A DNA stretch of 39,069 bases, taken from positions 1 through 39,069 of the forward strand of contig JANXAJ010000018.1 of NCBI GenBank assembly GCA_025062295.1, in the 5' to 3' direction. Made by a program: the position numbers and the translations under genes. Source of the stretch: Bacteroidia bacterium (GTDB taxonomy: Bacteria > Bacteroidota > Bacteroidia > SpSt-205). The notes beneath the pieces were generated by a model. It saw only the letters and a list, made by a program, of their open reading frames with translations, ran no database searches and was not told the origin of the DNA. This document shows positions 8,388-16,884 of this stretch, piece by piece; position 1 is the stretch's first letter, and each line of letters opens with the position of its first letter.

Positions 8388-8444
8388 TGCTGATTATACC
8401 CAAGTTTGCACTCTGTAGAGATTGTAGGGGTATCATGGGATGCT

Positions 8445-8472
8445 TTGATTTGGAAGCCGAGTAGTACCTTTG
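8445..8472 (+). promoter_or_regulatory. complete Bacteroidota promoter for the V4R operon
   Basis: A TTG at 8445-8447, 17 nt spacer, then an exact -7 box TACCTTTG at 8465-8472. The box ends 5 nt before the ATG at 8478, so the predicted transcript begins at or within a few bases of the start codon. Confidence 0.7.
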
Positions 8473-8477
8473 CCTCC

Positions 8478-8843
8478 ATGGCCGCATGGAGAAATTGGCT
8501 TCGAACTCTTTTGAAAGGAGGTGGAGAAAAGCTTGATTCTTCCCATTCCTTTTCTTCTCCTTCTTCTCCGTCATCTTCCTCCATTCCTTCCCTCTCTTCC
8601 ACGAGCTATGTTCCTTTACTCCCCCTCAGGGAATGGGTTATCCAACATACCTCTCCTTTTGCATGGGATAGAGCTATCATTCGCCTTCTCTCTGTCCAAC
8701 GAGACCCTAAGCTCTCTCTTTTTGAGCTACTCAAGCCTTCTGCCTCCACACAGATTTCTGAGGACCTCTACGATTCATTGAGCCGTATCATCCGAGAGAT
8801 GTATGGCTTTCAAGTTCCTCAAAACCTGAAAAAATATGATTAG
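8478..8843 (+). CDS. small unknown protein, first gene of V4R operon
   Basis: This 121-residue protein is not recognised. I start it at 8478 rather than the first ATG of the frame (8406) because a full promoter ends 5 nt before 8478. It has an amphipathic basic N-terminus (AAWRNWLRTLLKGG), a serine/proline-rich low-complexity linker (about residues 25-45), and a helical C-terminal part (REWVIQH, then DAL-type helices) ending QNLKKYD. There is no signal peptide or transmembrane segment. Its stop overlaps the next gene by 8 bp, so translation is probably coupled. The N-terminal helix plus flexible linker suggests a tethering or adaptor protein for the neighbouring V4R-like protein, but this is inference only. 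Confidence 0.55.
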   Translation: MAAWRNWLRTLLKGGGEKLDSSHSFSSPSSPSSSSIPSLSSTSYVPLLPLREWVIQHTSPFAWDRAIIRLLSVQRDPKLSLFELLKPSASTQISEDLYDSLSRIIREMYGFQVPQNLKKYD

Positions 8844-10104
8844 GGTGGAAGATATTCAGTTTTCACCTCGGCTAGACCGAGGCAGTCTTGTATTAGGAGG
8901 TGAGCCACATGTAGTTCACTGTCATTACTATAATCACTTCTTACAAACCAGTATAGAAGATGCAGAAGGGATTTACCCTGTAGAAAATGTATTAGTGGGT
9001 ACGGCTCAGGAGATAGCACATAGCCAGTTTCATCGGCTTTTTCAAGAAAAGGAGCTGAGGGAGGAGGGCGATAGAAAAGCCTTGGTAGAGACCATCTATT
9101 CGCTCTTGGGGATGGGGAAAGTAAGTTTAGAAGAAGTCTGCGCGGATGGGGGACAGGTAAGTACGCCGTATGAGCATTATGCTTATACCTATGCAGCGAC
9201 TTTTCCTCCTCGTCCTAAAGGCAAAAGGGGAGTAGCTTACTTTTCGCAGGGCTACTTAGCGGGAGCTATAGAAGCTATTTATGACTTGCCTTTAGGGAGC
9301 ATGGGGAGTCGGCAGAAAGCCTGCCTTACTCAAGGGGATTCTTATGTAGAATGGGAGTTTTTCCGTCTTAGTGAGCCACTACCGCTTCAAAATTCTGTAG
9401 GTGAGGGCAGATATCAAACTGCCTCTCTTCCTCAGCCGGAAGGTACCCGCGTACCTTTCCAGTCTATTCGGGATGCGGTTTTGAATCTACCTCTTAGTCC
9501 TGATCCTGAGACGGGATTCATAGAAGCTTTTGATGTAGTGCTCACGCGTCTGCCAGGCAACTACTATGCCCTTATTTCTGAAAGGCACTTCAAAAATATG
9601 CTGGCAGCATTCGGGTCTGACATTGCCCCTGTGGTGTTAGATATGCTCATAGAGTCTGGGCATGTTTGTGCCTTCAATACGCTTGGGGGCATCATGAGTA
9701 GTGCAGAATGGGACGCCGTCGTGCGTCCGTACTTAGACACGCCTGAAGATTGGCTTTACGGTATTATATCTGTCATGCCCGCGATAGGCTGGGGGATTGT
9801 AAAACCTCTTACGCATCCTAACCCTCAAAGTTGGAAGGTGTCCCTTCATAACTGGTATGAAAGCACTGCCATTGCTAGCCTTCCACAGGAGCGTGCTCTC
9901 ACGCATTCTCCCTTTGCAGAGGGGATTATGAATGGTATCCTTGCTTTGGTATATAAAGCAAGTATTCATACAAGGAGGCTTACCTTTGATGGTGAGCTCT
10001 ATAGCTCTCTTTTTCGGACGGGGAGACTCTATGAAAGCACCTTTCACCAGAGTAGGCTTCGGGGCGATTCTGTAGATGTAGTGGAAGGGTATGTCGTCGC
10101 CTAA
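8836..10104 (+). CDS. protein with two V4R-like domains, function unknown
   Basis: This 422-residue, apparently cytoplasmic protein seems to contain two related halves resembling the V4R (4-vinyl reductase / small-molecule-binding) fold. In half one (about residues 80-190) LLGMGKVSLEEV is followed by VAYFSQGYLAGAIEAIY and later a GDSYVEWEF segment. Half two (about 290-400) repeats the order: AIGWGIVKPL, then SPFAEGIMNGILALVY. The GWG/GxG strand followed by a Gly-rich helix (GYLAG / GIMNG) is the V4R hallmark. V4R domains bind hydrophobic or aromatic ligands in bacteriochlorophyll enzymes and in regulators, but no DNA-binding domain is present here and no photosynthesis gene is nearby. It overlaps the small gene before it (8 bp) and after it (14 bp). 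Assignment rests on pattern similarity, not on a search. Confidence 0.6.
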   Translation: MIRVEDIQFSPRLDRGSLVLGGEPHVVHCHYYNHFLQTSIEDAEGIYPVENVLVGTAQEIAHSQFHRLFQEKELREEGDRKALVETIYSLLGMGKVSLEEVCADGGQVSTPYEHYAYTYAATFPPRPKGKRGVAYFSQGYLAGAIEAIYDLPLGSMGSRQKACLTQGDSYVEWEFFRLSEPLPLQNSVGEGRYQTASLPQPEGTRVPFQSIRDAVLNLPLSPDPETGFIEAFDVVLTRLPGNYYALISERHFKNMLAAFGSDIAPVVLDMLIESGHVCAFNTLGGIMSSAEWDAVVRPYLDTPEDWLYGIISVMPAIGWGIVKPLTHPNPQSWKVSLHNWYESTAIASLPQERALTHSPFAEGIMNGILALVYKASIHTRRLTFDGELYSSLFRTGRLYESTFHQSRLRGDSVDVVEGYVVA

Positions 10105-10402
10105 ACCTCTACAGGCGCACTTAGTGCGAGAGTGTGCCCAGTGGGTAAAGTATGTAATTGATCTGCCCGAGCCTTTGTCCCTAGAGCAGTACCACCATCT
10201 CTCTAAGAGACTTAATGCGGACTTAAACGACATATGGTTGCCTAAAGCAGGTATTCTGTTTCAACTGCGCCTTCCTGAAAGTAAAGGCAAGCTGTCAGGC
10301 TCTAACAGTGAGCCTACGCTTCACGCCTTTCTTGCCAAAAGAGAACATGCCAACCTACTGAGTGTTACCTTATCTCACCTTCGCTCAATTCTTGAAGGAT
10401 AA
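10091..10402 (+). CDS. small unknown protein, third gene of V4R operon
   Basis: A 103-residue soluble protein with no recognised family. It starts 14 bp inside the end of the V4R-like gene, so it is very likely co-translated with it. The sequence suggests an alpha/beta fold: helix LVRECAQWVKYV, helix SLEQYHHLSKRLN, strand GILFQLRLP, then a C-terminal helix ANLLSVTLSHLRSILEG. It is the last gene before a 471-bp non-coding stretch. Function unknown; partner of the V4R-like protein is the simplest reading of the context. Confidence 0.6.
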   Translation: MSSPKPLQAHLVRECAQWVKYVIDLPEPLSLEQYHHLSKRLNADLNDIWLPKAGILFQLRLPESKGKLSGSNSEPTLHAFLAKREHANLLSVTLSHLRSILEG

Positions 10403-11622: not shown

Positions 11623-13065
11623 GTGAGATGGATTGCACGGCTTCTGACGATAGCTTTTGCGCAGGGGTTTTATGTCACTCGGGTGCAGCACGCGTTCATT
11701 GGGAAAGCTGGAGTGGATGAGACGCCGACCTGTGCCGCTCGCGACCGGGAAGGATATGTGTATGTAGGCGGTTTCGTTCGTTCCTCTTCGGTGGCGCTTC
11801 CTGATGGGTGGCTGGTGTGTCTGACCCCTACGGGAGAGGTGCGTTGGATGCTCACACCAGGGGGAATGGCTGCTGATCACATAGAGGATCTGTGGGTGGG
11901 TGATTCTATTCTTTACTTCTGCGGGTATAGCGGTTCTTCTCTTTCTCATCCAGAGGAGCTTCCTGTAGAGCGGCGCGCAGATTTCTGGGTGGGGGCAGTG
12001 GAAAAAGCGACAGGTACTCTTCTCTGGCAGCGGCGATGGGGAGGTCCGTTTATTGATATGGCTTTGAGCTTGTGTGGCACTTCCTATCACACCCTTCTTA
12101 TAGCCGGGCTTAGCTGGCATGACACTCTCTCAGGAGTGGAAGCCGTCGTCTGCGTACTCAATGAACGAACAGGTGAAGTTCTTCATCGGTTGAATTGGGG
12201 ACGAGCACCCAGTCTCATTCGCCGGATACGACCATTTTCCTTTCAGCGAAGCTTTATTTGCATCGGAGAGCAGGATCATCGTCCATTCATCGCAGAAATA
12301 GATTATCTTGGACAGATCCACTGGCGAGTATCACTCCAGTTTCATCGGTTTCCATCTCAGCTTCATGCTCTTCATATTACCTCGGACGGTCGGATAATAG
12401 TAGGGGGGCGATATGGAAATCGATGGAGCATAGCTGCCTTTACCCCCAGCGGTCAAATCATTTGGGAAAAGCTCTGGGACAGAAGCAATATGGATGGTAC
12501 GCTTCAGGCTCTGACTGAAGGACCTGAGGGTATCTTGTATGCTGTAGGATGGCAGTATAGCGAAGAACTCGTATCGTCGGAGCAGCGAGGAGGAGAGGAT
12601 ATTTGGCTGGCGGCCCTTACGAAGGAAGGGCATTTACTTTGGGAGCGAGGCTTTGGCGGACCAAGCGATGAGCGAGGGGTAGCCATCGTGCCAGCTGGCG
12701 ATACCCTCTTTCTGATTACCGCTAAGGAAAATCGCTTTAGTGATCCTTCCCCTCACAAGGACGCATGGCTGGTCATCCTTCGGGCGGTGCCGTGTAGTAA
12801 AATTCCTCTTCGCTTGCGAACAGATGCCCCTTCCCTCCAAGAAAAAGCAGGAACTCCTATTCGTTTCTGGGTGGAACTGCCTTCCTCATATGCAGTGAGG
12901 CGAGTCATTTGGGATTTTGGGGACGGTGGTACAGCCGAAGGCTCCTCTGTAGAGCATATTTACCTGCTTCCAGGCTTTTACTCTATTCAGGTTCGCATAG
13001 ATTTCAAGTATGGCTGTCAAGAAGTATATCCTCCCTCCTTTGGGTTGAAGATTAGCCGCCCTTAG
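11623..13065 (+). CDS. secreted beta-propeller protein with C-terminal PKD domain
   Basis: This 480-residue protein starts at a GTG: the frame is closed by a TAG at 11611 and contains no ATG near the beginning. A short hydrophobic N-terminus (ARLLTIAFA before QG) looks like a signal peptide. Residues about 25-385 form repeats of the kind YVYVGGF, LLIAGLSW, IIVGGRYG and LYAVGWQY, each followed by Trp-rich strands (LLWQRRWGG, IIWEKLWD, LLWERGFGG). This is a PQQ/SBBP-like beta-propeller. Residues about 395-478 are a PKD domain (VIWDFGDGG...VEHIYLLPGFYSIQV). No T9SS sorting domain follows, so it may stay in the periplasm or be anchored by a partner. Its 3' end overlaps that of the convergent PorV-like gene by 14 bp. 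Exact function unknown. Confidence 0.75.
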   Translation: MRWIARLLTIAFAQGFYVTRVQHAFIGKAGVDETPTCAARDREGYVYVGGFVRSSSVALPDGWLVCLTPTGEVRWMLTPGGMAADHIEDLWVGDSILYFCGYSGSSLSHPEELPVERRADFWVGAVEKATGTLLWQRRWGGPFIDMALSLCGTSYHTLLIAGLSWHDTLSGVEAVVCVLNERTGEVLHRLNWGRAPSLIRRIRPFSFQRSFICIGEQDHRPFIAEIDYLGQIHWRVSLQFHRFPSQLHALHITSDGRIIVGGRYGNRWSIAAFTPSGQIIWEKLWDRSNMDGTLQALTEGPEGILYAVGWQYSEELVSSEQRGGEDIWLAALTKEGHLLWERGFGGPSDERGVAIVPAGDTLFLITAKENRFSDPSPHKDAWLVILRAVPCSKIPLRLRTDAPSLQEKAGTPIRFWVELPSSYAVRRVIWDFGDGGTAEGSSVEHIYLLPGFYSIQVRIDFKYGCQEVYPPSFGLKISRP

Positions 13066-14137
13066 AGAGAATACGACGAGTCAGGGTAGGATGAAAATCT
13101 ATTCTGGCTGAAATGAGATGAGAGTACATGCCTTGGGAAAATCCTGTAAAGTTTGCAAGAGCATAGTCTATTCCAAAGTACCAGAGGCGCAGGCCGAGTC
13201 CTGCCGTTGGATAAAATGAGAGAGACGAGCGTCCTGTCCAATCTTTTATGCGTTGAAAGTTACTCATGCCGAGCCGAAAGGCTACCCAGTCTCGGTAGCG
13301 AAGTTCTGTGCCCGCTGCTATGTCAGCACTCAGTGGACGACCTGGGAGAAGGGTATTTCGAGGCCCGTCCCAGAAAAGGAGAATATCAGCTGTGGGCAGG
13401 AGGGAAAATCGTCGCTCCCGCCACAGATGAACACCTGCGCCGAGCCGAAAGCTGGGACGAGTCCATTCAATAGAATTCTGAGGAATAGCGTTTCCTGTGA
13501 GGATAAAGGCTTCCTCAAAAGTTTCCGTATTGAAGGTCCAAGCATTGAAAGTAGAGGTACCATCGTAGAGTACAGCACCCAATCGCCACGGTCCTTTTCG
13601 GTAGAGAAATCCTCCATCTATGCCGAATCCCCAGGCTGTCGCAAATGGTCCGATCACCCGATGGATGACTTTGAGGGAGACACCAATAGAAACACTTGTA
13701 TCCCGAAGCGGCTGAGCATAGGAAAGATAAAGGGCCATATCTGCAACGGAAAACTTCGTGATGCGGGAGAAATCATAGCTTGTCCCATCATAAAAGCGAA
13801 GCGTATTTGGGATATCATCTATGCCCAGTCGAATGAAGCTGATCGCTAAGCGTCGCCCTTCCTGAATGGGAAAGCTTAGAGCCCCATAATCGTACTTTGC
13901 TGCACTAGCAAAGTACTCACTGTGCATGAAGATAAGCTGGGGATAGGAAGGAGTACTCAAAAGGGCAGCGGGATTCCAATATCCTGCTGTGGCGTCATTA
14001 GCAGTGGCTGCTTGAGCATTACCTAAAGCTGCTGCTCGCGCTCCTACCCCTATCTTGAGGAATTCGTTGCTATACTTGACCTGAGCCCAGAGCCAAGAAA
14101 GAGCGATTAGCCCGTATAGCGCACGCCTATAAGGCAT
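13052..14137 (-). CDS. PorV/PorQ-family outer-membrane protein
   Basis: A 361-residue protein with a signal peptide (ALSWLWA before QV) followed by FLKIGVGARAAALGNA and ATANDATAGYWNPAAL. These are the diagnostic blocks of the PorV/PorQ family, whose members are outer-membrane FadL-like barrels. PorV itself works with the T9SS sortase PorU and shuttles cargo, and several paralogues exist in Bacteroidota. The rest is barrel-like. The C-terminus is SKGG rather than the aromatic end of many barrels. It is the last gene of a minus-strand operon and its start lies 31 bp inside the end of the SpoIIE-phosphatase gene, so the two are translated together. Whether it is PorV proper or a paralogue cannot be decided here; porU is not in the window. 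Confidence 0.8.
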   Translation of the reverse strand: MPYRRALYGLIALSWLWAQVKYSNEFLKIGVGARAAALGNAQAATANDATAGYWNPAALLSTPSYPQLIFMHSEYFASAAKYDYGALSFPIQEGRRLAISFIRLGIDDIPNTLRFYDGTSYDFSRITKFSVADMALYLSYAQPLRDTSVSIGVSLKVIHRVIGPFATAWGFGIDGGFLYRKGPWRLGAVLYDGTSTFNAWTFNTETFEEAFILTGNAIPQNSIEWTRPSFRLGAGVHLWRERRFSLLPTADILLFWDGPRNTLLPGRPLSADIAAGTELRYRDWVAFRLGMSNFQRIKDWTGRSSLSFYPTAGLGLRLWYFGIDYALANFTGFSQGMYSHLISARIDFHPTLTRRILSKGG

Positions 14138-16884
14138 ATATCATCTAACTGAGGGATATCTCCTCGCCAGTGAGTGATAAAGTCCTCAATCTCTGCTTTC
14201 TGTTTAGCAGCAGGAAGATGAAGTTTTTGGAGAAGGAGATCGCGGAGCCGCTTTTGCAAAAGTTTTGTTCGGCGGGGCGGCTGCCCCAGCAGATACTCCC
14301 ATCCAAATTGATCCACTATCCCATCCGAAAAGAGATAAATACTCATATTCAGGCGAAGGGGAATAGTATGACCTTCAAAGGCGATAGCTGCTTGGAGAGT
14401 GTCGCCGCCGATGCTGCGACGCGATCCCTTAAGCTCTATCAATTCCCCCTCAGGGGTAAAGACAAAAAGCGGCCGTCGAGCCCCAGCAAACTGAAGAAGC
14501 TGATTTTCCGTGTCAATCAAGCAGAGCGCAATATCCATTCCATCTTTGATTTGCTCTTGATGAAGGGTCTGATGAAGAGTGAGTCTCAGCTCCTCATCCA
14601 GTCTCTGAAGAAGAAGGGCTGGATTTTTTGGACCTTCTTCTTGAGCTAAGCGATTGAGGAGGGTCGTTCCTATCATACTCATGAAGGCCCCTGGCACACC
14701 ATGTCCTGTGCAGTCTGCCACTGCCAAGAGGCTCTGGGTCGGCGAGAGACTATAATAGAAGTAAAAATCCCCACTCACGACATCCCTGGGAAGGTAAAGA
14801 ACAAACGACTCAGGAAATCTCTCATAGAAGGGAGTAAGGTCCGGAAGAATTGCCATCTGAATTCGCCTTGCGTATTGGATACTTTCATCTATTTCGGCTT
14901 TTGCGCGCTCTATTTCAGCTTTTTGCTCTTCTAAAAGAGCTTTTTGCTCTTCTATCAAGCGATTTCGTTCAGCCAGTTGAGCGTTGATTTCTCGCTCTCG
15001 CTGATTAGCTCTATATAACACAAAGAGGAATGCCGCTGCTGCTCCAATCAAGAGAGTGGCGCTGATAATAATGACCCACGTGACTTGACGGGCTTTTTCA
15101 GCTCGGAGTTTCTCAGCTTCTAAGCGCCGCTCTTGCTGCTCTCTCTCTTTCTGGTAGAGATAGTTCAGTTCCATCCGAGTCATCGCTCGTGTATTTTCTT
15201 CGTTAGAGAGGCGCCGAATCGCATCTAAGAGCGGCTGGATATATCGGTAGCCTTTCTCGTATGCACCTAACTTTCCGTACAAAAAGATAAGTTTTTCATA
15301 CGCTTCTCCTAGTTCGCTATACGCTTCTATAGGCTCTAATGTGAGGCGTGCTGCTTCATAGGCTTGGAGAGCTTCTCTGTATTGATTACGGAGAAGAAAA
15401 AATTGTCCTTGGGTCATATACACATAAGCGAGAGCTTGAGGATTCCGACTTTTCTGGGCGTATCGGAGAGCTGTTTGAAGGTACCGACGAGCGGTATCCA
15501 CTCGCCCTTGATCCAATTCTAGCCGGGCAAGGTTAATACACGCTTTTGCAGCAGAGATCCAGTCCTCTGCTTCCTCCGCTAGAATAAGCGATTCCCGCAG
15601 GAGATTCCGACCTGCTTCAGTGTTACCTACTTGAATCTGAACAACTGCTAAATTCATTGCAACCTGGAAGGGGAATCGAGTGTCTGGCGCCAAGTTCGCA
15701 TAATCGGCAGCTAAGCTAAACGCCTCTAATGCCTTTTGCCATTCTTCTTGATTGTAGTAGATTTCACCTAAATTGTTCAAGACCATAGGAAGCATAGTTG
15801 AATCATTTTGCATCTCGCAGAGGCGTCTTGCTTCTAAGAGATGTTCCATAGCTTGGGGGTACAATGCCTGAAGAGTGTAGATATTAGCCAAGTTGAGAAG
15901 GACTTGGACGGCGAGTGTGCTTGCATTTTTTGCTTTAGCAATGGTGAGTGCATTTTGATAGAGGTCTTTTGCTTGAGCGTAGCTGCCCACTCGGAGGAAT
16001 CCTTCCGATGCTACCCAGTTCAGAAGTTCAGCCCAGAGAAGGCTATCAGCCTCTAAATCTTTTTCTGCCTGCAGAAGAAGGGTATCTACTTGTGGTAAAG
16101 CGGACTGGATAGCCTGCGTAATAGCGAGGCCGTATGCCTCTTTCAGCCATGTAAGCACGCCGGATCGCTTCGCTATCGCTATAATGTCCCGATGAGTCTG
16201 GAGAGCCTCTGGTATTTTACCCTGCTTCAAATAAACAAGAGCGAGGGTTTTTAGAGCATTTCTTTGATACTCTTCTTCTTTGTTTGCCTCAGCTAAAGTC
16301 AAAGCTTTCCGAACGCTTTCTTCTGCCAGCTCATAAAGATTAAGCCGGAGGTACAGCTCAGCTTTGTTGATGAGTGTCATAATAATAAGACGAGGCTGTC
16401 CTGACTCTTGAGCAAGGCTAAGGGAGCGTTCGTACAGGGTCTGTGCCTCCACCGTATTTCCGATGCTTTCAGCAAGAGAAGCTTTGAGATTGAGAATCTG
16501 GACCGTAATCGGTAGGTCATTGGGTATGAAAGTGGCTATACTCTCAGCCCGAGCGAGAAGCCGTCCCGCTTGATCGTATGAGTTTATGTAGTAGAGAGCA
16601 GAAGCTTGATAATAAAGACTCAGAACTTGGCGACGCAGGTCCTTAATCCGCTGGGCTATAGGAAAGGCTTGACGGGCATATTCGAGTGCCCGACGCTCAC
16701 TGATGTTTAGATAGAGCTTAGAGAGAGTAATGCAAGTCGTGAGATAGGTGGTATCGGGCAAGCGTCCCTGTCGGAGGAGACGCTCCAGTGAATCTATTTC
16801 TCGCCCGCTCTGAGCGAGAGCCCAACCGCCCACTAGCCCTATCCCAAGGAAGAGGAGTCGCACAAGTCTTTCAAAGGTAGGCAT
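14107..16884 (-). CDS. membrane TPR protein with SpoIIE/PP2C phosphatase domain
   Basis: A 925-residue signalling protein. Order: signal peptide (1 to about 24), roughly a dozen TPR units in the predicted periplasmic part (about 30-560), a basic coiled coil, one transmembrane helix (about 602-625, VIIISATLLIGAAAAFLF), a second coiled coil of EEQK-type heptads, then a SpoIIE/PP2C serine phosphatase domain (about 690-922). Metal-binding and catalytic motifs are present: RDVVSGDF, VADCTGHGVPGAFMS, DGMDIA, SDGIVDQ and LDDICL. It should sense through the TPR domain and dephosphorylate a cytoplasmic target such as an anti-sigma antagonist; none is encoded nearby. maf lies 13 bp upstream and the PorV-like gene overlaps its end by 31 bp, tying the phosphatase to outer-membrane secretion. 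Confidence 0.88.
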   Translation of the reverse strand: MPTFERLVRLLFLGIGLVGGWALAQSGREIDSLERLLRQGRLPDTTYLTTCITLSKLYLNISERRALEYARQAFPIAQRIKDLRRQVLSLYYQASALYYINSYDQAGRLLARAESIATFIPNDLPITVQILNLKASLAESIGNTVEAQTLYERSLSLAQESGQPRLIIMTLINKAELYLRLNLYELAEESVRKALTLAEANKEEEYQRNALKTLALVYLKQGKIPEALQTHRDIIAIAKRSGVLTWLKEAYGLAITQAIQSALPQVDTLLLQAEKDLEADSLLWAELLNWVASEGFLRVGSYAQAKDLYQNALTIAKAKNASTLAVQVLLNLANIYTLQALYPQAMEHLLEARRLCEMQNDSTMLPMVLNNLGEIYYNQEEWQKALEAFSLAADYANLAPDTRFPFQVAMNLAVVQIQVGNTEAGRNLLRESLILAEEAEDWISAAKACINLARLELDQGRVDTARRYLQTALRYAQKSRNPQALAYVYMTQGQFFLLRNQYREALQAYEAARLTLEPIEAYSELGEAYEKLIFLYGKLGAYEKGYRYIQPLLDAIRRLSNEENTRAMTRMELNYLYQKEREQQERRLEAEKLRAEKARQVTWVIIISATLLIGAAAAFLFVLYRANQREREINAQLAERNRLIEEQKALLEEQKAEIERAKAEIDESIQYARRIQMAILPDLTPFYERFPESFVLYLPRDVVSGDFYFYYSLSPTQSLLAVADCTGHGVPGAFMSMIGTTLLNRLAQEEGPKNPALLLQRLDEELRLTLHQTLHQEQIKDGMDIALCLIDTENQLLQFAGARRPLFVFTPEGELIELKGSRRSIGGDTLQAAIAFEGHTIPLRLNMSIYLFSDGIVDQFGWEYLLGQPPRRTKLLQKRLRDLLLQKLHLPAAKQKAEIEDFITHWRGDIPQLDDICLIGVRYTG

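Follow-up and report, generated by a model that had tools for sequence, protein, structure and literature searches.

A tandem V4R protein and two small proteins encoded with it form a conserved three-gene unit and a probable sensory input module in bacteria

V4R proteins without an effector domain have been called poorly understood since 2008 (PMC2253512), and the locus described here raises the question of what such a protein might do when it is encoded in one operon with two small proteins. In the window, by which we mean the whole stretch of 39,069 nucleotides that was analysed from a Bacteroidia genome, three genes lie on the forward strand and overlap by 8 nt (genes 1 and 2) and 14 nt (genes 2 and 3). 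Gene 1 (8478..8843) encodes a protein of 121 aa with a basic amphipathic N-terminal helix, a Ser/Pro linker and a helical C-terminal domain, gene 2 (8836..10104) a 422-aa tandem V4R protein without an effector domain, and gene 3 (10091..10402) a protein of 103 aa. These coordinates and overlaps are as given in the original prediction. The ATG of gene 1 at 8478 is conserved in congeners, an alternative frame starting with TTG at 8406 giving 145 aa, and all three are real genes by their conservation in congener loci, with identities of 61-80% for gene 2 and 25-55% for genes 1 and 3. None of the three proteins had a match in Pfam or NCBIfam up to E=5, which leaves the two small ones outside the catalogued families, as had been supposed, and none had a match in PADLOC.

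The three genes are a fixed genetic unit. Genes 1, 2 and 3 were all present in the same 12 of 60 relatives, the other 48 having none of them, such that homologues scattered independently across genomes, the outcome named in advance as speaking against the unit, were not what we found; the co-occurrence across the 60 genomes was perfect. The full order of gene 1, gene 2 and gene 3 is seen in eight congener loci, and a ninth, in G009, is a second pair of genes 1 and 2 without gene 3 there. In G012, gene 1 lies on a separate contig from genes 2 and 3. This detached gene (L159:6558-6872, G012:C230) adjoins a DNA methyltransferase-like gene, while genes 2 and 3 are together elsewhere. The original prediction had spoken of a fixed complex; the genetic part of this stands by the 12/60 co-occurrence, and the complex itself remains a prediction from sequence.

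The other window genes, when tested against the nine congener loci, gave no match, and the flanks differ. The neighbouring genes of the window were thus rejected as partners, none of them being near the unit in congeners, and for this reason we do not claim as a partner the nearby TPR-SpoIIE phosphatase gene (14107..16884, reverse strand), which encodes one of the 14 SpoIIE-domain proteins of the genome and could supply an output, but lies about 4 kb from the unit and is not syntenic in congeners. It is overlapped by 31 nt by a reading frame on the same strand (13052-14137) with a weak PorV match (E=0.0046, below the cut-off).

Beyond the genus, a scan of GTDB genomes returned 52 loci in Bacteroidota, Myxococcota, Planctomycetota, Acidobacteriota, Nitrospinota, Spirochaetota, Elusimicrobiota, Cloacimonadota, Hydrogenedentota and others, a spread of about ten phyla. 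The gene 1 domain is directly upstream of gene 2 in 39 of the 52 loci, and gene 3 adjoins gene 2 in 31 by the strict profile, several of these contigs ending too early for the neighbouring genes to be judged. Usually there is one copy of the unit per genome. The Bacteroidota sequences group in a single supported clade (100/99), within which a long branch leads to the window genus.

Is gene 2 a V4R protein? Taken by itself, the window protein has no Pfam V4R match even at E=5, and the Pfam V4R profile detected no V4R protein in the host genome, so its membership is by homology: 28 of 38 gene 2 homologues match Pfam V4R (PF02830; best 6.6e-18), six of the 38 match the NCBIfam family of the redox regulator MsvR (best 2e-8), and the best match of the family profile in the PDB is MJ1460 (E=0.0013). 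The AF2 model (pLDDT 95.9, pTM 0.94) consists of two similar halves, and its closest solved folds in a Foldseek search are the phenol sensors MopR and PoxR, Bet3/TRAPPC3 and MJ1460. The predicted structure thus has the V4R fold, the absence of which had also been named in advance as speaking against the proposal, and model and profiles together bear out the tandem halves proposed originally. The two-domain architecture is further supported by some Myxococcota and one Sericytochromatia locus in which the two halves are separate genes. V4R domain 1 spans 8863..9375 (about residues 10-180) and V4R domain 2 spans 9457..10095 (about residues 208-420); residues that are invariant across phyla include H28, C29, N33 and H114 in the first and Y243, Y244, E273 and C278 in the second. 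The chain is V4R throughout, and neither the Pfam scan of the homologues nor the model revealed an AAA+ or HTH effector.

The canonical C-terminal V4R signature E..C...GD..C, which provides the zinc ligands in MopR and PoxR, is degenerate in both gene 2 domains in the window genus (domain 1 of the window protein reads Q160..C163...G167D168, and domain 2 has lost the cysteine signature); it varies across the family, some members of which, L060 and L066 among them, have it intact. This weakens the case for a zinc site in the window protein, but not that for the fold.

Signalling by V4R domains is already known. The phenol regulators MopR, PoxR and DmpR (XylR_N/V4R) share the fold of gene 2 and use V4R as a ligand input to a separate output. 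However, gene 2 combines two V4R domains in one chain with no DNA-binding or AAA+ domain, the unit adds two small proteins, and the window genus has the degenerate zinc signature. MsvR, a redox regulator of methanogens whose V4R domain is C-terminal (PMC3729527), has conserved V4R cysteines in common with the gene 2 family, but carries its own helix-turn-helix, whereas the output of the unit would be encoded elsewhere. MJ1460 (2osd/2oso) is a stand-alone single-domain V4R protein, whereas gene 2 has two domains. In PYP-V4R fusions (PMC12826048), V4R is one of two inputs and the chain has no relay domain, as in gene 2, though for gene 2 the Pfam scan revealed neither a PYP domain nor any other photoreceptor domain.

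If gene 2 lacks an output, the genes around it may point to one. In the window genus, no signalling gene lies inside or adjoining the operon, and the earlier remark that there is no kinase or regulatory context is correct for the window. It does not extend to the family, whose neighbours include SpoIIE, histidine kinase, STAS, Che and ParA/Roadblock-like genes. A PAS-SpoIIE phosphatase is part of the operon in L026 (gene 3, PAS-SpoIIE, gene 1, gene 2) and in L024 (PAS-SpoIIE, gene 3, gene 1, gene 2), and the unit is adjacent to genes for a GAF-SpoIIE protein (L052), a PAS-histidine kinase (L066), a PAS-SpoIIE protein (L141) and a PAS-STAS protein (L147). In L132, genes 1, 2 and 3 follow a complete chemosensory operon, CheA-CheW-MCP-CheB-CheR, with CheB, CheR, gene 1 and gene 3 identified by eye.

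Signalling genes made up 14 of 59 adjacent same-strand genes as compared to 17 of 344 distant ones (odds ratio 6, P=1.8e-5), in a test whose distance cut-off was chosen after a weaker one, in which the broad enrichment within 2.5 kb of the unit was modest (P=0.016). In other lineages, some three quarters of the neighbours on the same strand are non-signalling, and clustering of the neighbours brought out no recurrent family besides the unit itself and signalling genes. The output classes are those of RsbR/RsbU (STAS/SpoIIE) partner switching: such genes lie beside the unit in L024, L026, L052, L141 and L147, they are absent from the window operon, and the set is present in the host genome. The input differs, since in the unit it is V4R with genes 1 and 3, not a stressosome.

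We think it probable, though well short of certain, that the operon is a portable cytoplasmic V4R sensory input module that feeds varied signalling outputs. Gene 2 would be a pair of covalently joined V4R domains, both taking part in sensing a signal that is small and hydrophobic or else redox in nature; the helical C-terminal domain of gene 1 would hold gene 2 at the membrane or on a partner, and gene 3 may be a small alpha/beta adaptor. The state of the module would then be passed to a separately encoded output, which according to lineage could be a SpoIIE-type PP2C phosphatase, a histidine kinase, a STAS partner-switching protein or a CheA array. Ligand binding, the assembly of a complex and this direction of signalling we infer; the unit, its V4R fold, its co-occurrence and its signalling neighbourhoods are observed. 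What speaks against this reading is that the operon has no signalling gene in or beside it in the window genus, that most same-strand neighbours elsewhere are non-signalling, and that the cysteine signature of the window protein is degenerate.

What the two small proteins contribute is best approached from their conservation. The N-terminal helix of gene 1, MAAWRNWLRTLLK, has a net charge of +3 and a hydrophobic moment of 0.62, with 4.8% of shuffles equally high, and its basic amphipathic character is conserved within the genus and in Bacteroidia. Charge, moment and genus conservation thus agree with the helix described originally. Across phyla, the C-terminal domain (8613..8840, about residues 46-121, about 75 aa in the window protein) is the sole portion conserved; other phyla retain just this domain, at about 65 aa, and most of them lack the N-terminal helix. 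The tether that had been proposed for gene 1 may hold in those Bacteroidota that have the N-terminal helix, but elsewhere the C-terminal domain is all that is left of the protein. The Bacteroidota and non-Bacteroidota versions of gene 1 are likely rather than certain to be homologous, as judged from shared position and profile comparison (hhalign probability 91). The cross-phylum detection of gene 1 used trimmed profiles; an iterated profile was discarded because it drifted into gene 2. One longer reading frame that ends in the gene 1 domain (L091:4057-5115) has no Pfam match and looks HATPase-type by eye.

Gene 3 was modelled with a beta2-alpha-beta4-alpha fold (pLDDT 96; the L051 sequence, in the wrong frame, was left out of the input). 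A family search found no catalogued family for it. Since the fold search returned no match below E=0.05, with TBP-like and spermine-synthase N-domain folds above it, we claim no homology for gene 3.

The presence of Bet3/TRAPPC3 among the top fold matches suggests another possibility. Bet3/TRAPPC3 of TRAPP and archaeal TRAPPC3 have the same fold and paired V4R units, and the operon could encode a TRAPP-like spatial or tethering assembly, in which a Bet3-type V4R pair, a membrane anchor provided by gene 1 and Roadblock-like partners would act on a ParA-type ATPase and would control position in the cell instead of reporting a ligand. We regard this as unlikely. What speaks for it is that a ParA-type ATPase and two Roadblock-like proteins accompany the unit in at least 11 Polyangia and Acidobacteriota loci (L089, L090, L134, L135, L136, L139, L144, L145, L148, L150 and L102, the Acidobacteriota being represented by one genome), in the order ParA, Roadblock-like 1, Roadblock-like 2 with the gene 1 domain, tandem V4R, the gene 1 domain being fused to a Roadblock-like domain in both groups.

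However, the Roadblock assignment is marginal: the best PDB profile matches are all to MglB, at a marginal E=0.015, the weak Pfam matches are to LAMTOR5 in 5 of 11 members and to Robl_LC7 in 4 of 11 (best 0.0078), and for the first Roadblock-like protein of the cluster the PDB profile tests gave no match, its identity leaning on the weak Pfam matches. Furthermore, the unit was not seen together with a ParA or Roadblock gene in Bacteroidota, and beside it in the window no Longin or Roadblock subunit was recognised. A small GTPase was not found, the Polyangia neighbour being a ParA-type ATPase, and in several lineages the neighbours are signalling genes. The unit thus differs from Bet3/TRAPPC3 in being bacterial, in lacking a Rab GTPase and in its signalling neighbours. 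An extended version would have Myxococcota and Acidobacteriota carry a bacterial TRAPP-like assembly of a Bet3/V4R pair, Roadblock-like subunits and an anchor on a ParA-type ATPase, the three-gene unit being its core that was rewired elsewhere to phosphatase, kinase and chemotaxis outputs; we give this bold proposal a small chance. In the Polyangia version, genes for V4R, Roadblock-like and ParA proteins are clustered, which would bear on the origin of TRAPP-type pairings.

It is also conceivable, and in our view rather improbable, that gene 2 is a soluble carrier or chaperone of a hydrophobic molecule such as a lipid, a hydrocarbon or a pigment precursor, for which gene 1 would be the membrane dock and gene 3 the lid. 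V4R/Bet3 pockets hold hydrophobic ligands in solved structures (PMC2253512; PMC10933270), and the amphipathic helix of gene 1 in Bacteroidia is of a membrane type, but this helix is missing in most other phyla, and the sole recurrent neighbours to stand out in the clustering are the unit and signalling genes, the latter being enriched. The signalling neighbours favour a sensor over a carrier. A mobile defence or toxin-antitoxin cassette, for which the differing flanks of window and congeners and the compact overlapping genes could be cited, is very improbable given that no component has a PADLOC match, that genomes usually carry a single copy, that the Bacteroidota form a supported clade, and that the contexts are Che, SpoIIE and histidine kinase genes.

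In the literature, our search being confined to open-licence PMC papers, we did not find the three-gene unit described, nor a tandem effector-free architecture combined with two uncatalogued partner families and interchangeable outputs. If the reading as a sensory input module is true, the module would be swappable among four kinds of bacterial signalling output, two small protein families new to Pfam and NCBIfam would have been found, and V4R proteins without an effector domain would gain a function that can be tested.

For the host itself, the sensory module would probably act through one of 14 SpoIIE phosphatases, on a STAS/anti-sigma-kinase set encoded elsewhere in the genome. The host genome contains 14 SpoIIE domains above the cut-off, 3 STAS domains and 2 RsbW-like kinases above the cut-off, and on contig C14, SpoIIE, STAS and RsbW-like (HATPase) genes are consecutive. 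A PAS-SpoIIE protein on C1 is the closest full-length host match to the operonic PAS-SpoIIE proteins of L024 and L026 (26% and 24%), but this match is weak and one-way, which makes the C1 protein a lead and not a partner. It is worth recording that 14 SpoIIE-domain proteins, with varied N-terminal parts, occur in a genome (G000) of 2.05 Mb, on contigs C66, C14, C6, C5, C22, C1, C26, C73, C4, C9, C25 and C49.

Finally, the operon was originally credited with a complete promoter (8444..8472, forward strand). A Bacteroidota -7 box, TACCTTTG (8465-8472), lies 5 nt upstream of the gene 1 ATG, and TAnnTTTG-like boxes are found at the equivalent position in congeners, where the alignment shows the sequence farther upstream to have diverged. 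The candidate -33 element TTTG (8444-8447), with a spacer of 17 nt, is weaker than the -7 box, such that the promoter is plausible rather than proven. Going by the general position of a -7 box, its spacing to the ATG suggests an mRNA with little or no leader. Before ATG starts, the window has 5 TAnnTTTG boxes as compared to 1.9 expected (shuffle maximum 6), which suggests leaderless mRNAs in this lineage while not being significant on the window alone. Such boxes stand 3-6 nt upstream of likely ATG starts at window positions 8478, 33300, 19420 and 1259.
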